Assembly: GCF_017908595.1 (NCBI RefSeq)
Contig: NZ_JAGKTL010000001.1
Span: forward strand, 310,001 to 374,000
Length of the DNA stretch: 64,000 bases
Reading direction: 5' to 3'
Source: Rhodothermus bifroesti
GTDB taxonomy: Bacteria > Bacteroidota > Rhodothermia > Rhodothermales > Rhodothermaceae
Below the pieces are notes generated by a model. It ran no database searches, was not told the DNA's origin, and worked only from the letters and a program-made list of their open reading frames with translations. Both the position numbers and the translations under genes were made by a program. Of the stretch, positions 36,375 through 41,383 are shown one piece after another; within the stretch, counting starts at the first letter, position 1; the number at the start of each line of letters is the position of its first letter.

Positions 36375-36581
36375 TCAAGCTACATCTTCGCGCAGGACCT
36401 CGTGGAACACCGTTTTGCCTGTTTGGAGCATGTGACGGACATAAGGCAAGCAAAGCCGGCAACGCAGGCCAAAGGCCACCTGCTGCTGCAGTGCTTCAGG
36501 GCTTGTCACCTTGTGCTGCTGGGCAATCGCCTTAAGCTCGGCAAACGTTCGCTGAAAGCAATAGCATCGGTCAATGCGCAT
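36375..36581 (-). CDS. BFD-like [2Fe-2S] protein
   Basis: A 68-residue protein with four cysteines in the BFD arrangement: Cys6-X-Cys8 (RCYCFQ) and Cys41-X2-Cys44 (RCRLC), about 32 residues apart, with helical segments between. BFD domains carry a [2Fe-2S] cluster and act as small electron carriers. It starts 2 bases after the stop of the BtuG-like lipoprotein, so it belongs to the riboswitch-controlled B12 operon. A role in reducing cobalamin or cobalt is an attractive but unproven idea. Confidence 0.72.
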   Translation of the reverse strand: MRIDRCYCFQRTFAELKAIAQQHKVTSPEALQQQVAFGLRCRLCLPYVRHMLQTGKTVFHEVLREDVA

Positions 36582-36583
36582 TG

Positions 36584-37702
36584 TTAACGCCTCTCTTGCA
36601 CAAGCGCGATGTGGGAAGGGGCTGGGCCTACGCTAAAGCGGTCAATCTGACGTCCTTCGCGGTTCAAGATCACCACAGCGCCTGCGGCGGTATAGTCTGG
36701 GCGCCCGTTGGGTCCAGCAGCCAAGCGGGCCACATAGAGCCGTTGTTGTGCGGCATCATAGGCCACAGCTGAAAGACCAGCCAAATCCGTTGCGGTAGGC
36801 ACCGTGATCGTTGCTGCCAGGGCGTTGGCATTGGTGTTAACCCGAAAGATGCGGCCGCTACCGCTTGAGATTGCATAGAGTTCTTCCACTTCCGGAGCGT
36901 AGTAGGCCACTTGCGTGCCGTTGGCCGATCCGAGCTGAACCTCAAGCGTCAGACGTGCAGTCACGACCCCGGTAGTGGGATTCATGAAAACGATTTGGCC
37001 ATTGGTCTGTTCAATGATGGCGCTGTAATCGGCATTGTACACCGTTTTGCCTAAGCAAACGACAACCAGTTCCTCTTCGGCATCAATAAACACTGCTTGG
37101 GGACCGTCGCAACCCGGTTCAAGTGTCTGAACCACCGCATCTGTAGCGGTATCGATCACCGAAATGGTTCGCCCCGCACCTAGTGAACCGTAGTTGGCGA
37201 CGTAGACCCGTCCCTTGTGAGCTACGAGCCCTTCTGGATAAAGGCCAACGGGGATTGTATCGGGCAAAAGCGTTTGGGTTACAGGATTAAAGGCTAGCAC
37301 AAATCCATCGCGTCCAAAAGCCATGTTGGTCACGTAGGCTTTTTGGTCGCTTGCAAAGGTGATGTATCGCGGGATAGGTACATTTATGCGGCCCGCCAGC
37401 TGGCGCGAAGTTAGGTCAACGATCGCGATCTGTCCGACGCTAAACGTGTTCAGGGCTACATATGCTCGTCCTTGGTGCAGCGTTAGGCTTTGCACGAAGG
37501 CGTTCAGGGCCAGCGTAGCGGTCTGGCCTGTAGCCGGGTCATAAAACGTCAGCGAGCCATTTTGGTCACTGAAGTTGCCCCCATTGCCTACCACAACGCC
37601 TGTGATGACCAATCTGGAGGCTTGATCATCTTCGGAGCCCAGCAGATCGCAACCGTTTAGTACCAAAAGGAGCAAGCTCCAAAGCAATAGCAGTTTTCTC
37701 AT
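36584..37702 (-). CDS. beta-propeller surface lipoprotein, BtuG-like
   Basis: A 372-residue lipoprotein with lipobox VLNGC (Cys18) and YncE/DUF5074-type repeats. Seven blades are suggested by recurring segments such as LTFYDPATGQTATL, IAIVDLTSRQLAG, LAFNPVTQTLLPD, ISVIDTATDAVVQTLEPG, IVFMNPTTGVVTARL and AVVILNREGRQID. It lies 26 bases after btuB in the same riboswitch-controlled operon. In Bacteroides, BtuG is a beta-propeller lipoprotein that binds B12 at the cell surface and works with BtuB, so the same job is inferred here from position and fold. Direct sequence similarity to BtuG was not tested. Confidence 0.75.
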   Translation of the reverse strand: MRKLLLLWSLLLLVLNGCDLLGSEDDQASRLVITGVVVGNGGNFSDQNGSLTFYDPATGQTATLALNAFVQSLTLHQGRAYVALNTFSVGQIAIVDLTSRQLAGRINVPIPRYITFASDQKAYVTNMAFGRDGFVLAFNPVTQTLLPDTIPVGLYPEGLVAHKGRVYVANYGSLGAGRTISVIDTATDAVVQTLEPGCDGPQAVFIDAEEELVVVCLGKTVYNADYSAIIEQTNGQIVFMNPTTGVVTARLTLEVQLGSANGTQVAYYAPEVEELYAISSGSGRIFRVNTNANALAATITVPTATDLAGLSAVAYDAAQQRLYVARLAAGPNGRPDYTAAGAVVILNREGRQIDRFSVGPAPSHIALVQERR

Positions 37703-37728
37703 GGTTTATCTTAATTTAGTGGATGGAC

Positions 37729-39636
37729 TTACGCGTTTTTTGGGTTCAGATCGATCCGAAGCTGCACGCGCACCTGGCGCGGAGGCATCGGGTAAAAACG
37801 CACCACTTCGTAAGGATAGTTGGTCAGATTCTCCACGCTGAGGCCTAAAGCCAGCCGTACGTAGCGCAGGGCTTGCTCCCAGCGCAGGTAGCCATCGACA
37901 ATGAGGTAGGGCCTTAATGCCTGCGTTTCATCAGTGGTGAGATAGCGACGGCCTGTGTAGCGTCCTTGCAGGCCGATGCGCAACCCAGCCCATTGGATTT
38001 CCCCAAAAGCTTTCAGCTGGTGCAAAGGCACGTAGCGAAGCTGGCGGCCGAAAGCTGGGCTTGCACGATATGAGCGGTCCTCGGCGCGGGTATAGGTGTA
38101 GAAGCTTCCGCCCTGGAGTACCACAGGACCCCAAGCAATCGCTTCGGTAGCGAGCGAGGCTTCCAGGCCGCGCGTGTGCACACGCCCTACGTTTACCGGC
38201 TTCCAGAGCTGCAAACCCGGCGCCACCAGTGCAGGGTACCAGACGATCTGGTCCACCAAAGCGGTGTAAAAAGCCGTGAGCTCCAGCGAGAACTTAGGCG
38301 GATGGAGCAGTAGTCCAGCTTCCAACGTCCAACCGCGCTCTGGGCGAAGGTGGGGGTTGCCCCCAGGCATGTAGAACCGTTCACCTAACGTAGGAGCTCG
38401 AAAAGTTCGTCCGATTTGTCCTTTCAGGTGCAGTCGTTGCGCACGAAGGGCCAGGTTGAAGCCGAGTTGCGGGCTAAAGGTTTGGAAGTGCTGCGCTCGG
38501 GTTACGTATCTATCTAACCGTAGGGCAGGATAAAGCCAAAGGGGCCCCACGTGACCGTTGCCTTGCAACGCTAGTGCACCGGCACGCCCATCCACACCAC
38601 CACGCAGCGCAGCGTGCTCCCACCGCGTTTCAGCACTTAACGTCATAGCCCACCGCTTGCCTAGCGCTTGTTCCAGCATTCCACTGAAGCTCAGCGTGTA
38701 CGTACGTGCCGTATCCTGCTGCTGGGCATACGTGTTGACGTACTGCAGCCGGGTATGCTGGTAGTGGCCCCCAAGCGTGAAACGGCCCTTAGGGATAGCA
38801 CGCCAAGCACCTAACAGCAGGCGTTGCGCATGGTCCGTCTGCCAAGCGTCGATGGGAGGCGCGTTTCCCGGGCCGGGAAGGCTGCGGTGTGCTGCGGTAG
38901 CCCAAAACGTACCCTCAAAGCGCCAGGCGTTCTCGTAACGGACTTTACCAAACAGCGTGGTCATTTGACGGTCGGCACCTTCTCGCCGCCGGGTTTTGGG
39001 CGGTGGCAGCGGGTTAGGATAAGGGTAATCTCCTGTGGCCAGACTGCGCTCCGCAGCGGCCACGGCTGCTATGCGTCCTTTCCCGCCCTGCATCACGACA
39101 CCTAGGCTACGTTCGCCGAAAGCCCCTACCCGCACAGCAGCCCGAGCGCCTAGACGCTCCCTAGGCCGTAGCGTATGCAAGTGCACAACCCCTCCCATAG
39201 CTCCAGAACCATACAGGGCAGTGGCAGGACCGTGCACCACCTCAACCGCCTCCAGGAGCACGCTGGGCAAAAGGGTCAAGTCGAGAAGACCAGACTGGGG
39301 ATCGGCTACCCGGTGTCCATCGACAAGCAAGAGTGTCTGCGTAGCAGCCGCACCGCGTAGGGAAACCGCTGCTAACCCTCCACTGCCATAACGACGCACC
39401 CAGAGACCTGTCCGTGCTTCGAGCACTTCGGCGGCTGTCGTAGCACCCGCTGCTTCCCATGCTGAGGCCTCTAAACGCCATAAGCGCTGCCCTGCCGTAA
39501 GCGCGCTAGGCGTTCGCTGCCCTTCGATCACCACAGGTGGAAGCATCCGCGTGGTGTCCGAGTGCTCCTGTGCCCAAGCGCCCCTAAGGCTCAATAGGCC
39601 CCATAGCAGCAGTCCACATGTACGCGAAAAGCCCAT
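37729..39636 (-). CDS. btuB: TonB-dependent outer-membrane receptor, BtuB-like (vitamin B12)
   Basis: A 635-residue receptor with a signal peptide (about 1-22), a plug domain (GATTAAEVLEARTGLWVRR and SLRGAAATQTLLLVDGHRV) and a beta-barrel ending in an aromatic-rich strand (YPYEVVRFYPMPPRQVRVQLRIDL). A likely TonB box is MLPPVVIEGQR. The length is close to E. coli BtuB. It is assigned to cobalamin because a cobalamin riboswitch precedes it and a BtuG-like lipoprotein follows. ATG 39636 directly adjoins the riboswitch terminator's T-run. Confidence 0.9.
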   Translation of the reverse strand: MGFSRTCGLLLWGLLSLRGAWAQEHSDTTRMLPPVVIEGQRTPSALTAGQRLWRLEASAWEAAGATTAAEVLEARTGLWVRRYGSGGLAAVSLRGAAATQTLLLVDGHRVADPQSGLLDLTLLPSVLLEAVEVVHGPATALYGSGAMGGVVHLHTLRPRERLGARAAVRVGAFGERSLGVVMQGGKGRIAAVAAAERSLATGDYPYPNPLPPPKTRRREGADRQMTTLFGKVRYENAWRFEGTFWATAAHRSLPGPGNAPPIDAWQTDHAQRLLLGAWRAIPKGRFTLGGHYQHTRLQYVNTYAQQQDTARTYTLSFSGMLEQALGKRWAMTLSAETRWEHAALRGGVDGRAGALALQGNGHVGPLWLYPALRLDRYVTRAQHFQTFSPQLGFNLALRAQRLHLKGQIGRTFRAPTLGERFYMPGGNPHLRPERGWTLEAGLLLHPPKFSLELTAFYTALVDQIVWYPALVAPGLQLWKPVNVGRVHTRGLEASLATEAIAWGPVVLQGGSFYTYTRAEDRSYRASPAFGRQLRYVPLHQLKAFGEIQWAGLRIGLQGRYTGRRYLTTDETQALRPYLIVDGYLRWEQALRYVRLALGLSVENLTNYPYEVVRFYPMPPRQVRVQLRIDLNPKNA

Positions 39637-39669
39637 AAAAAAGCCCGTTACCTCAAACGAGGTCCGGGC
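39637..39669 (-). terminator. riboswitch-controlled intrinsic terminator before btuB
   Basis: On the minus strand GCCCG-(G)-ACCTC (39669-39659 region) pairs with GAGGT-(AA)-CGGGC, ending at 39643, around the loop GTTT, and is followed by TTTTTT (39642-39637) directly before the btuB ATG. An upstream segment GAGGTCCG (39735-39728, minus strand) is the exact complement of CGGACCTC in the terminator's 5' arm, and pairing extends four more bases past one mismatch. This is the expected antiterminator. Confidence 0.82.
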
Positions 39670-39758
39670 CTATGCAAGCGACGCGCGGCCAAATGCCTAA
39701 GCCGTCGAACAGCCGATGCATCAGGCACGGACCTCAGTTCCCGGAGGCTTCGGCCTGA

Positions 39759-39993
39759 CGCCGCCGGCAGGTCTCCTGGCTCGCCGCAGGCCCTGTCGAT
39801 CCGACAGGGCAGGTCGCTACGGGCTCCACCGCCAGCCTTCCCATCTGCTCCCAAGCAGACAGTGACTGTCGGCTTCTTCGCCCGCCAACCTCAGCTGCAG
39901 CTCACAGTTGCGGGTACAGCTCCAGACTCCCCGACGCTACCGTCGGGCCACTGGATTCCCTTTTCATCCGCTTAAGGCGGAACCGGCGACGCA
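39759..39993 (-). promoter_or_regulatory. cobalamin (AdoCbl) riboswitch aptamer
   Basis: The minus strand shows the cobalamin riboswitch landmarks in order: GCCGGTTCCGCC, AAAAGGGAATCCAGTG, the core GGGAGTCTGGAGCTGTACCC followed by GCAACTGT, and the B12 box AGCCAGGAGACCTGCC (39781-39766). The outer P1 helix can form between GCGTCGCCGG near 39993 and CCGGCGGCGT near 39759. Cobalamin binding should favour the downstream terminator and shut off btuB, the BtuG-like gene and the BFD-like gene. Boundaries are approximate. Confidence 0.92.
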
Positions 39994-40128: not shown

Positions 40129-40140
40129 GCGCGAATCTAT

Positions 40141-40158
40141 GTACGTAAGATTACGTAC
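40141..40158. promoter_or_regulatory. perfect palindrome, probable MarR operator
   Basis: GTACGTAA-GA-TTACGTAC is a perfect 8-bp inverted repeat with a 2-base centre, 4 bases before the marR start at 40163 and just downstream of the putative promoter. MarR dimers bind such 16-20 bp palindromes, and autoregulation is common in the family. If the upstream ATG 40139 were used, the palindrome would be coding. Confidence 0.65.
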
Positions 40159-40162
40159 GCCG

Positions 40163-40633
40163 ATGAAACTTTCCGAACGGATTCAACAATCCCAGTTTGC
40201 CTCGCCTGCACAGGAAGCCTTGCTCAACATTTTGGTCACCAGTTCTTGGGTGCTGAGCGAGCTGAGCACTTTGATGGCCCCTTTTGGCATTACCCCCACG
40301 CAGTACAATGTGCTGCGCATTTTACGCGGCAGCCATCCCCGCAAGTTGACCTGCACCGAAATCGGCCGGCGCATGCTCGACCGCACGCCCGATGTTACAC
40401 GCATCTTGAATCGACTTCAAAAAGCTGGCTGGATTACGCGGGGACGAGCTACTTACGACAAACGCGTTGTTGAAGTCGGTATCACGGAAAAAGGGCTAGA
40501 CCTGCTGGCGCACATGCAACCTCTGGTCGATGCTGCCCAGGAACGCTTGATGGCTCGCCTATCTCCAGAAGAATTGCGCCAGCTGAGCAACTTGCTCGAC
40601 CGCTTACGTGCTGAAGAACCCTCGCTGTCTTAA
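40163..40633 (+). CDS. MarR family transcriptional regulator
   Basis: A 156-residue winged-helix repressor. The fold runs through TQYNVLRILRG, KLTCTEIGRRMLDRTPDVTRILNRLQKAGWI (recognition helix region) and the wing RATYDKRVVEVGITEKG, with a C-terminal dimerisation helix. Start MKLSERIQQSQ (40163) is chosen over ATG 40139 because of the operator-like palindrome between them. Six bases separate its stop from the transporter gene, so the two are co-transcribed. Ligand unknown. Confidence 0.87.
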   Translation: MKLSERIQQSQFASPAQEALLNILVTSSWVLSELSTLMAPFGITPTQYNVLRILRGSHPRKLTCTEIGRRMLDRTPDVTRILNRLQKAGWITRGRATYDKRVVEVGITEKGLDLLAHMQPLVDAAQERLMARLSPEELRQLSNLLDRLRAEEPSLS

Positions 40634-40639
40634 ACCGCC

Positions 40640-41383
40640 ATGCGACCAGAAGTTTACGTTTTAAGCCGCCCACAAAAGCTTTTTGTCGTTTGCACAGCTA
40701 TTTTTATCACAGCATTGGTTATTGCCGAAGCCACGTCAACCAAATTTTTTACAGCCTTTAAGCTGCCTTTCCCGATTCATCTTTTTGGCATGACCTTCGG
40801 CGAGGTGGTTATGACCACTGGTGTGCTAGCCTTTCCGGTCACGTTCATTATTACCGATCTTATGAACGAGTACTTTGGCAAAAAAGGGATCCGCTTCGTG
40901 ACGCTCGTGGGGATGGTCATGATCGGGTTTGAGTTTTTGCTGCTTCAAGCCGCCATTGCCGTTCCAGCAGCTAGCATTTCTCCGGTATCCCAGGAAGCAT
41001 TTGAGGCGGTTTTTGGGACGACAGGCCGCATCATTCTAGGCAGCTTAACAGCGTATTTGCTCGGGCAACTGGCCGACATTACCCTTTTTCATTGGCTTCG
41101 CGGCCTTACACGAGGCCGTTTTCTTTGGTTGCGGGCTACAGGCTCAACGTTTGGGTCGCAGTTTATCGACACGTTTGTTGTGCTCACGATCGCCTTTGCT
41201 GGTCAGCTTGCCTTTCAACAAATTCTTGCGATCACGCTTTTTAACTACGGATACAAGCTCCTCATTGCCATCGCAATTACACCGTTGATTTACTTAGCCC
41301 ACTGGGCAATGGATGCCTACTTGGGCAAGGAATTGGCGCATCAGCTTACTGCCAAAGCTGCTGCGCGCCAAGATGCCTTTTAG
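40640..41383 (+). CDS. queuosine precursor transporter (YhhQ/VUT family)
   Basis: A 247-residue membrane protein of the vitamin-uptake-like (VUT_1) family; E. coli YhhQ imports queuosine precursors preQ0/preQ1. About six hydrophobic helices are present, with family segments VIAEATSTKFF, VTFIITDLMNEYFGKKG and TGSTFGSQFIDTFVVLTIAF, ending in a YKLLIAIAITPLIY helix. It follows the MarR gene in one transcript and overlaps the convergent DUF2905 gene by 4 bases. No queuosine biosynthesis genes are in the window. Confidence 0.87.
   Translation: MRPEVYVLSRPQKLFVVCTAIFITALVIAEATSTKFFTAFKLPFPIHLFGMTFGEVVMTTGVLAFPVTFIITDLMNEYFGKKGIRFVTLVGMVMIGFEFLLLQAAIAVPAASISPVSQEAFEAVFGTTGRIILGSLTAYLLGQLADITLFHWLRGLTRGRFLWLRATGSTFGSQFIDTFVVLTIAFAGQLAFQQILAITLFNYGYKLLIAIAITPLIYLAHWAMDAYLGKELAHQLTAKAAARQDAF

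Follow-up and report, generated by a model that had tools for sequence, protein, structure and literature searches.

The closest described system to the one considered here is the BtuB-BtuG pair of Bacteroides (BtuG1-3; PDB 3DSM, 8BMX, 8BMY, 8BAI, 8BLW, 8P97), for which capture and hand-over of the corrinoid are established (PMC6143338, PMC10404256). In BtuG2 the loop Asn54-Thr64 grips the ligand (PMC10404256). Among 313 human gut genomes BtuG was found only in Bacteroidetes, and its discussion there was in terms of adapting to life in the crowded gut (PMC6143338). Here we analyze a window of 64,000 nucleotides of Rhodothermus bifroesti (NCBI RefSeq assembly GCF_017908595.1, contig NZ_JAGKTL010000001.1, positions 310,001 to 374,000), from a 2.88 Mb genome in 8 contigs, in which a cobalamin riboswitch, a btuB-like gene, a gene for a propeller lipoprotein and one for a small BFD-like protein all lie on the minus strand (Table 1). 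Profile searches, the structure model, the control by a riboswitch and a linkage with btuB that relatives share all strongly support the propeller being a genuine BtuG homologue, which bears out the preliminary description of this DNA, where it had been called BtuG-like. On balance, we lean towards a B12-repressed uptake-and-activation operon as the best explanation of the whole locus.

The window propeller, used as a single query against the PDB, already recovered BtuG structures at 1e-11. A family profile built from 18 relatives matched every BtuG chain nearly full length in hmmsearch, with E-values from 1.9e-44 to 1.5e-33 (8p97 1.9e-44; 8bmx 1.0e-42; 3dsm 7.0e-40; 8blw 5.4e-35), the best of these matches spanning profile positions 8-360 of 368. 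Against the same profile E. coli YncE reached 2e-9 with partial coverage only, and the repeat protein 1l0q owed its top summed score to five short repeats. The AlphaFold2 model (mean predicted local distance difference test score, pLDDT, 92; predicted TM-score 0.87) is closest to BtuG: BtuG or BtuBG entries occupy ranks 1-16 of a Foldseek search of the PDB, and the VIA-align Z-scores are 35.9 for 3dsm, 35.6 for 8bai, 35.5 for 8bmz, 33.1 for 1l0q and 28.8 for YncE. Seven-bladed propellers are common, the window protein matches PF16819 under the Pfam cut-off, and 1l0q is nearly equal in structure; these observations would suit a YncE/SMP-30-like protein that binds some other ligand and lies next to btuB incidentally. 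Indeed, fold alone is insufficient to decide BtuG identity. However, all BtuG chains beat YncE in both sequence and structure and are matched nearly full length, so that the order of the matches, their coverage and the motif described below concur.

Residues were mapped to BtuG2 using the numbering of PMC10404256. The ligand-gripping loop of BtuG2 (NEGNFQYSNAT) corresponds to residues 40-50 of the window protein (NGGNFSDQNGS), and retention of this motif speaks further against a YncE/SMP-30-like protein. The PRY motif is likewise retained at residues 111-113, and Tyr335 of BtuG2 (in a DY motif) is matched by Tyr337. By inspection, the lipobox Cys18 is invariant in 18 sequences, and an acidic SEDD-like run follows at +5 to +8 after this cysteine. 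Two observations weigh against a BtuG role: the aromatic residues of the upper-ligand cavity of BtuG2 are not fully preserved, with Trp272 and Tyr316 not retained and Trp194 replaced by Tyr, and the net charge of the mature window propeller is -9, as opposed to the -18 quoted for BtuG2. All 18 Rhodothermota-type BtuG proteins share Cys216, which aligns to Thr235 of BtuG2, beside the mobile ligand loop 236-249. Of the 18 relatives, 15 also have Cys198; hence, a Cys216-Cys198 disulphide is possible in most of them, though not in all.

BtuG matches at 1e-10 or better occur in 114 of 196 sampled genomes of the class, which also served for the counts of BFD given below. Sixty-one class genomes combine a BtuG match with a listed riboswitch; in 53 of them the riboswitch precedes btuG by 1.9-2.8 kb in the same orientation, a distance equal to the length of one btuB. 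Such a placement one gene downstream of the switch would not be expected of a propeller standing by btuB incidentally. Thus, instead of an unrelated propeller whose homologues lie away from btuB and outside B12 control, we find a BtuG fold under recurrent riboswitch control; we consider a YncE/SMP-30-like identity very unlikely and a BtuG function of the window propeller very probable. The nearest named relatives belong to Rhodothermus sp. metagenome-assembled genomes, in which BtuG is 73-77% and the BFD-like protein 66-72% identical. More broadly, BtuG is widespread in Rhodothermota, present in Balneolota and weakly represented in Ignavibacteria, that is, in thermal, saline and sediment bacteria. 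The proposed extension of the BtuG system to Rhodothermota is therefore upheld; it is a large step in terms of habitat and lineage, yet it does not span distant phyla, since GTDB places Rhodothermia within Bacteroidota. This spread argues for BtuG being ancient within the wider lineage, as opposed to an innovation of gut bacteria. A search of the open-access literature found no paper pairing BtuG with Rhodothermus. In one family of genomes (f7; e.g. G163, G203, G211) the BtuG-like open reading frames are about 450 residues long, against 372 in the window, and the BFD-like gene is absent.

Table 1. Features of the B12 operon and its flank in the window, followed by arrangements of B12 genes around the BFD-like gene in other loci.
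Feature or arrangement	Position	Strand	Basis or loci
Cobalamin riboswitch aptamer RF00174	40002-39749	-	Rfam 85.3 bits, full model 1-189
Probable expression platform, T-run preceded by a GC-rich hairpin	39670-39642	-	runs up to btuB ATG, encloses GAGGT
btuB-like TonB-dependent outer-membrane receptor, 635 aa	39636-37729	-	barrel PF00593 1.5e-39, plug PF07715 1.6e-18
BtuG-family seven-bladed propeller lipoprotein, 372 aa	37702-36584	-	profile, AlphaFold2, Foldseek, VIA-align; lipobox Cys18
BFD-like [2Fe-2S] protein, 68 aa, CxC-x32-CxxC	36581-36375	-	PF04324, AlphaFold2, Foldseek
PIG-L/LmbE-type deacetylase	36274-35531	-	PF02585 1.9e-32; 100 bases past BFD-like gene
btuB-btuG-BFD			
btuB-btuG-DUF6580-btuF-BFD			Salinibacter altiplanensis L214; L071, L173
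btuB-btuG-btuF-DUF6580-(BtuG-like)-pduO-BFD			L151
btuB-btuG-DUF6580-x-pduO-BFD			L132
btuB-DUF6580-x-pduO-BFD			L126
btuB-btuR-BFD			L124
btuB-DUF6580-metH-BFD-kinase-deaminase-btuR			L247; similar in Ignavibacteria L163, L169, L183, L237
btuB-BFD			L076, L077, L157

The riboswitch scores well above the gathering threshold (31.5 bits; E 1.4e-19) and is the only RF00174 match that Rfam yields in the window. The order of riboswitch, btuB, propeller and BFD-like gene given in the preliminary description is confirmed, as are the gaps of 26 bases between btuB and the propeller gene and of 2 bases between the latter and the BFD-like gene; the start of the riboswitch, by contrast, moves from 39993 to about 40002. 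Between the aptamer and btuB, a hairpin is consistent with termination or with masking of a Shine-Dalgarno-like GAGGT; 63 nucleotides around it fold at -25 kcal/mol (z -1.6, which is modest), and a terminator-like scan match covers 39661-39644, weak by itself because the scan gave 3 matches in total against 4.3 expected. For the BtuB-like protein the best NCBIfam model is TIGR01779 (TonB-B12, 1.1e-37), with a score of 129.9 bits that lies far under the 599.7-bit cut-off. Within the genus, btuG and the BFD-like gene keep their order and the 2-base gap, which argues against a chance arrangement.

The four cysteines of the BFD-like protein (C6, C8, C41 and C44) do not vary among 60 sequences, which come from several phyla, and have the spacing CxC-x(31-34)-CxxC, and a C-terminal tail of the form PY(V/I)xxMLxTGxTxF is nearly invariant in the family. 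The window protein matches PF04324 at E 3.2e-5 (24.6 bits, just below the 26-bit cut-off), as do 58 of the 60 family members at E 0.01 or better; it scores only 14.1 bits against the 75 demanded by the NCBIfam Bfd equivalog NF007803. Its AlphaFold2 model (pLDDT 94) retrieves Pseudomonas aeruginosa Bfd as the top four Foldseek matches (probability 0.77-0.98, E 0.16-0.36) and nothing else convincing, and VIA-align superposes it on structures of that protein with Z 6.5-7.0 and a root mean square deviation (rmsd) of 1.6-2.1. We detected no export signal in the protein, the CxC motif being reached already at residue 6. Because a signal peptide is lacking, the protein belongs in the cytoplasm, where it can have no part in the capture or release of B12 at the outer membrane.

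Its gene is found in 153 of the 196 class genomes, nearly always in single copy, and in 56 of the 64 genomes with both genes (the order together with family f11) it is the gene next after btuG, over 11 families. For a search independent of B12 genes we used a DNA pattern for the C-terminal motif over species genomes, the counts being those of a sample, and called the genes of each locus by codon usage with the BFD reading frame forced in. Among the matches listed, 116 loci were usable: 28 have same-strand B12 genes within five genes, 28 have dcd or rsmE, and 60 have neither. By lineage, again among the matches listed, the B12-linked loci make up 11 of 12 in Rhodothermales, 9 of 14 in other Bacteroidetes, 4 of 5 in Ignavibacteria and 4 of 12 in unnamed bins, with 0 of 23 in genomes named Balneolia and 0 of 6 in Zixibacteria. 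The gene immediately upstream of BFD varies by lineage among six B12 genes, namely btuG, btuB, btuF, pduO, cobO/btuR and metH (Table 1), and riboswitches, which stand at the head of several such arrangements, lie within the loci L124, L132, L199 and L221.

Several findings count against a general tie between BFD and B12. Among the matches listed, none of the 35 planctomycetotal loci is B12-linked. BFD stands beside btuG in 0 of 27 Balneolia-type genomes holding both; in the loci of this type that were read, it lies between rsmE and dcd, the latter coding for a two-domain dCTP deaminase. Family f7 keeps btuB-btuG and PduO without BFD, and near the window gene there is no gene for a redox enzyme able to pass electrons to the [2Fe-2S] protein or to take them from it. 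As the Balneolian BFD resides in a dcd-bfd-rsmE operon and that of Phycisphaerales in yet another setting, the link to B12 is lineage-specific. Moreover, given the lack of B12 neighbors in Balneolia and Planctomycetota and the absence of BFD from f7, the BFD-like family is separate, older and broader, and the uptake system need not include it. The dcd-bfd-rsmE operon is itself conserved in Balneolia (L086-L099 and families f12, f13, f14, f48, f49), and in Ignavibacteria a gene of the deoxycytidylate deaminase type likewise follows BFD, so that a link to deoxycytidine deamination recurs.

These data bear on whether BFD is a general [2Fe-2S] housekeeping protein, acting for example in iron storage or Fe-S supply, that entered the operon by inherited gene order. 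The family's presence in non-B12 settings in Planctomycetota, Zixibacteria, Armatimonadota and Balneolia, its nearly constant single copy per genome, and its absence from f7, where btuB-btuG is kept, would all agree with such a role; further, a tree of 117 BFD proteins over 74 columns is too short and too weakly resolved to distinguish one origin of the B12 link from many. Yet a single inherited order would not predict an upstream gene that varies and is still nearly always a B12 gene, and, in the window genus, the gap of only 2 bases and the control by a riboswitch also speak against it. We accordingly regard the housekeeping role as rather doubtful, though a serious alternative, and hold that the BFD-like protein probably has some role in B12 metabolism. 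As a separate matter, the type of adenosyltransferase was considered as the reason for BFD presence and rejected: PduO occurs in 84 of 90 genomes of the order and CobA/BtuR in none, with no separation of families with and without BFD.

The cytosolic placement of the protein, together with neighbors that import, adenosylate (PduO, BtuR) or use (MetH) corrinoid, would fit a protein that carries electrons for the reduction of cobalt. The preliminary description had the [2Fe-2S] protein help reduce or release corrinoid: an action on corrinoid gains genuine, if indirect, support from the six B12 neighbor genes in several lineages, whereas release at the outer membrane does not fit a protein devoid of a signal peptide. 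Under the uptake-and-activation scheme, low adenosylcobalamin would permit transcription and translation of the operon through the riboswitch; BtuG, as a surface lipoprotein, would catch the corrinoid and pass it to BtuB, which it would cap; TonB energy would drive the corrinoid into the periplasm, from where an inner-membrane transporter would import it; the cytosolic [2Fe-2S] protein might then carry electrons that lower the oxidation state of the cobalt, upon which a PduO-type adenosyltransferase could make coenzyme B12, or MetH could be reactivated, or both. Capture and hand-over would here be carried over by homology to the Bacteroides pair, and we infer that the window BtuG is exposed on the cell surface and binds corrinoid, as we infer all that the [2Fe-2S] protein is proposed to do. 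The proposed targets exist, as the window genome holds a PduO gene adjoining an ABC ATPase gene (contig C2) and MetH (contig C3).

A narrower possibility is that BFD serves MetH alone, taking the place of flavodoxin as electron donor when the cob(II)alamin of this methionine synthase is reductively reactivated. The metH gene is directly or closely upstream of BFD in four Ignavibacteria loci and in L247, and, as noted, MetH is encoded in the window genome; but elsewhere the neighbor is an adenosyltransferase (L124, L126, L132, L151, L187) or an uptake gene, and reactivation demands a very low potential, which renders exclusive service to MetH improbable. Returning to corrinoid reduction in general, we propose this function for the BFD-like protein tentatively, on the strength of gene context. 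With the same reserve, we posit a dedicated small [2Fe-2S] carrier for corrinoid activation, which may close operons for B12 uptake, adenosylation and metH in the Rhodothermota-Ignavibacteria-Bacteroidota assemblage. To our knowledge, few dedicated bacterial proteins for corrinoid reduction have been recognized. If the proposal is true, the carrier would fill a poorly known step, the physiological reduction of cob(II)alamin. Being under riboswitch control and linked with six different B12 genes, the [2Fe-2S] protein is a specific candidate for the donor of electrons in corrinoid reduction.

In 15 related loci, too, a PIG-L deacetylase gene comes next after the BFD-like gene on the same strand; owing to this recurrence and its short distance, the one in the window may be the fourth gene of the transcript. 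Divergent from the operon, genes for a MarR-family regulator and a queuosine-precursor transporter (TIGR00697) occupy 40139-41383 on the plus strand. In btuB operons of other genomes, DUF6580 (PF20221), a protein of about 185 residues, recurs (L126, L132, L151, L169, L173, L183, L214, L247, L071, L081) and is a candidate component of B12 transport; we found no paper linking DUF6580 or BFD-type proteins to B12 in the open-access literature. A second aptamer, AdoCbl-II (RF01689), was detected at G000:C6:14436-14560 (L249 6456-6514, minus strand) with 41.1 bits against a gathering score of 36.5. It precedes the gene for a ribonucleotide reductase large subunit, and metE lies farther downstream along that strand. 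This arrangement suggests that the presence of B12 represses B12-independent isozymes, and it fits an organism relying on B12 supply.

Compared with known proteins, the BFD-like protein shares with Bfd (PDB 4E6K, 6E6R) the fold (VIA-align Z 7.0 over 52 residues, rmsd 1.6) and the CxC...CxxC spacing; it differs in its additional C-terminal motif, and no bacterioferritin neighbor was seen. The corrin reductases PduS (PMC2982820) and CobR (PMC4083273) perform the job proposed here, the provision of electrons for cobalt reduction before adenosylation. These, however, are flavoproteins, whereas the window protein, a [2Fe-2S] carrier of 68 residues, has no room for a flavin or NADH domain and would thus need a separate reductase. 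The window propeller differs from Bacteroides BtuG in being only about 25% identical in a structure-based alignment, in carrying the acidic run CDLLGSEDD and no export signal of the MKWD type, and in having the invariant Cys216 where BtuG2 has Thr beside the ligand-gripping loop; further, it is encoded at a single locus, in a thermophile outside the gut. The two systems have in common a riboswitch-controlled operon in which btuG adjoins btuB, and a BtuG protein with a signal peptide and lipobox, a seven-bladed propeller, the GNF loop and the PRY motif.

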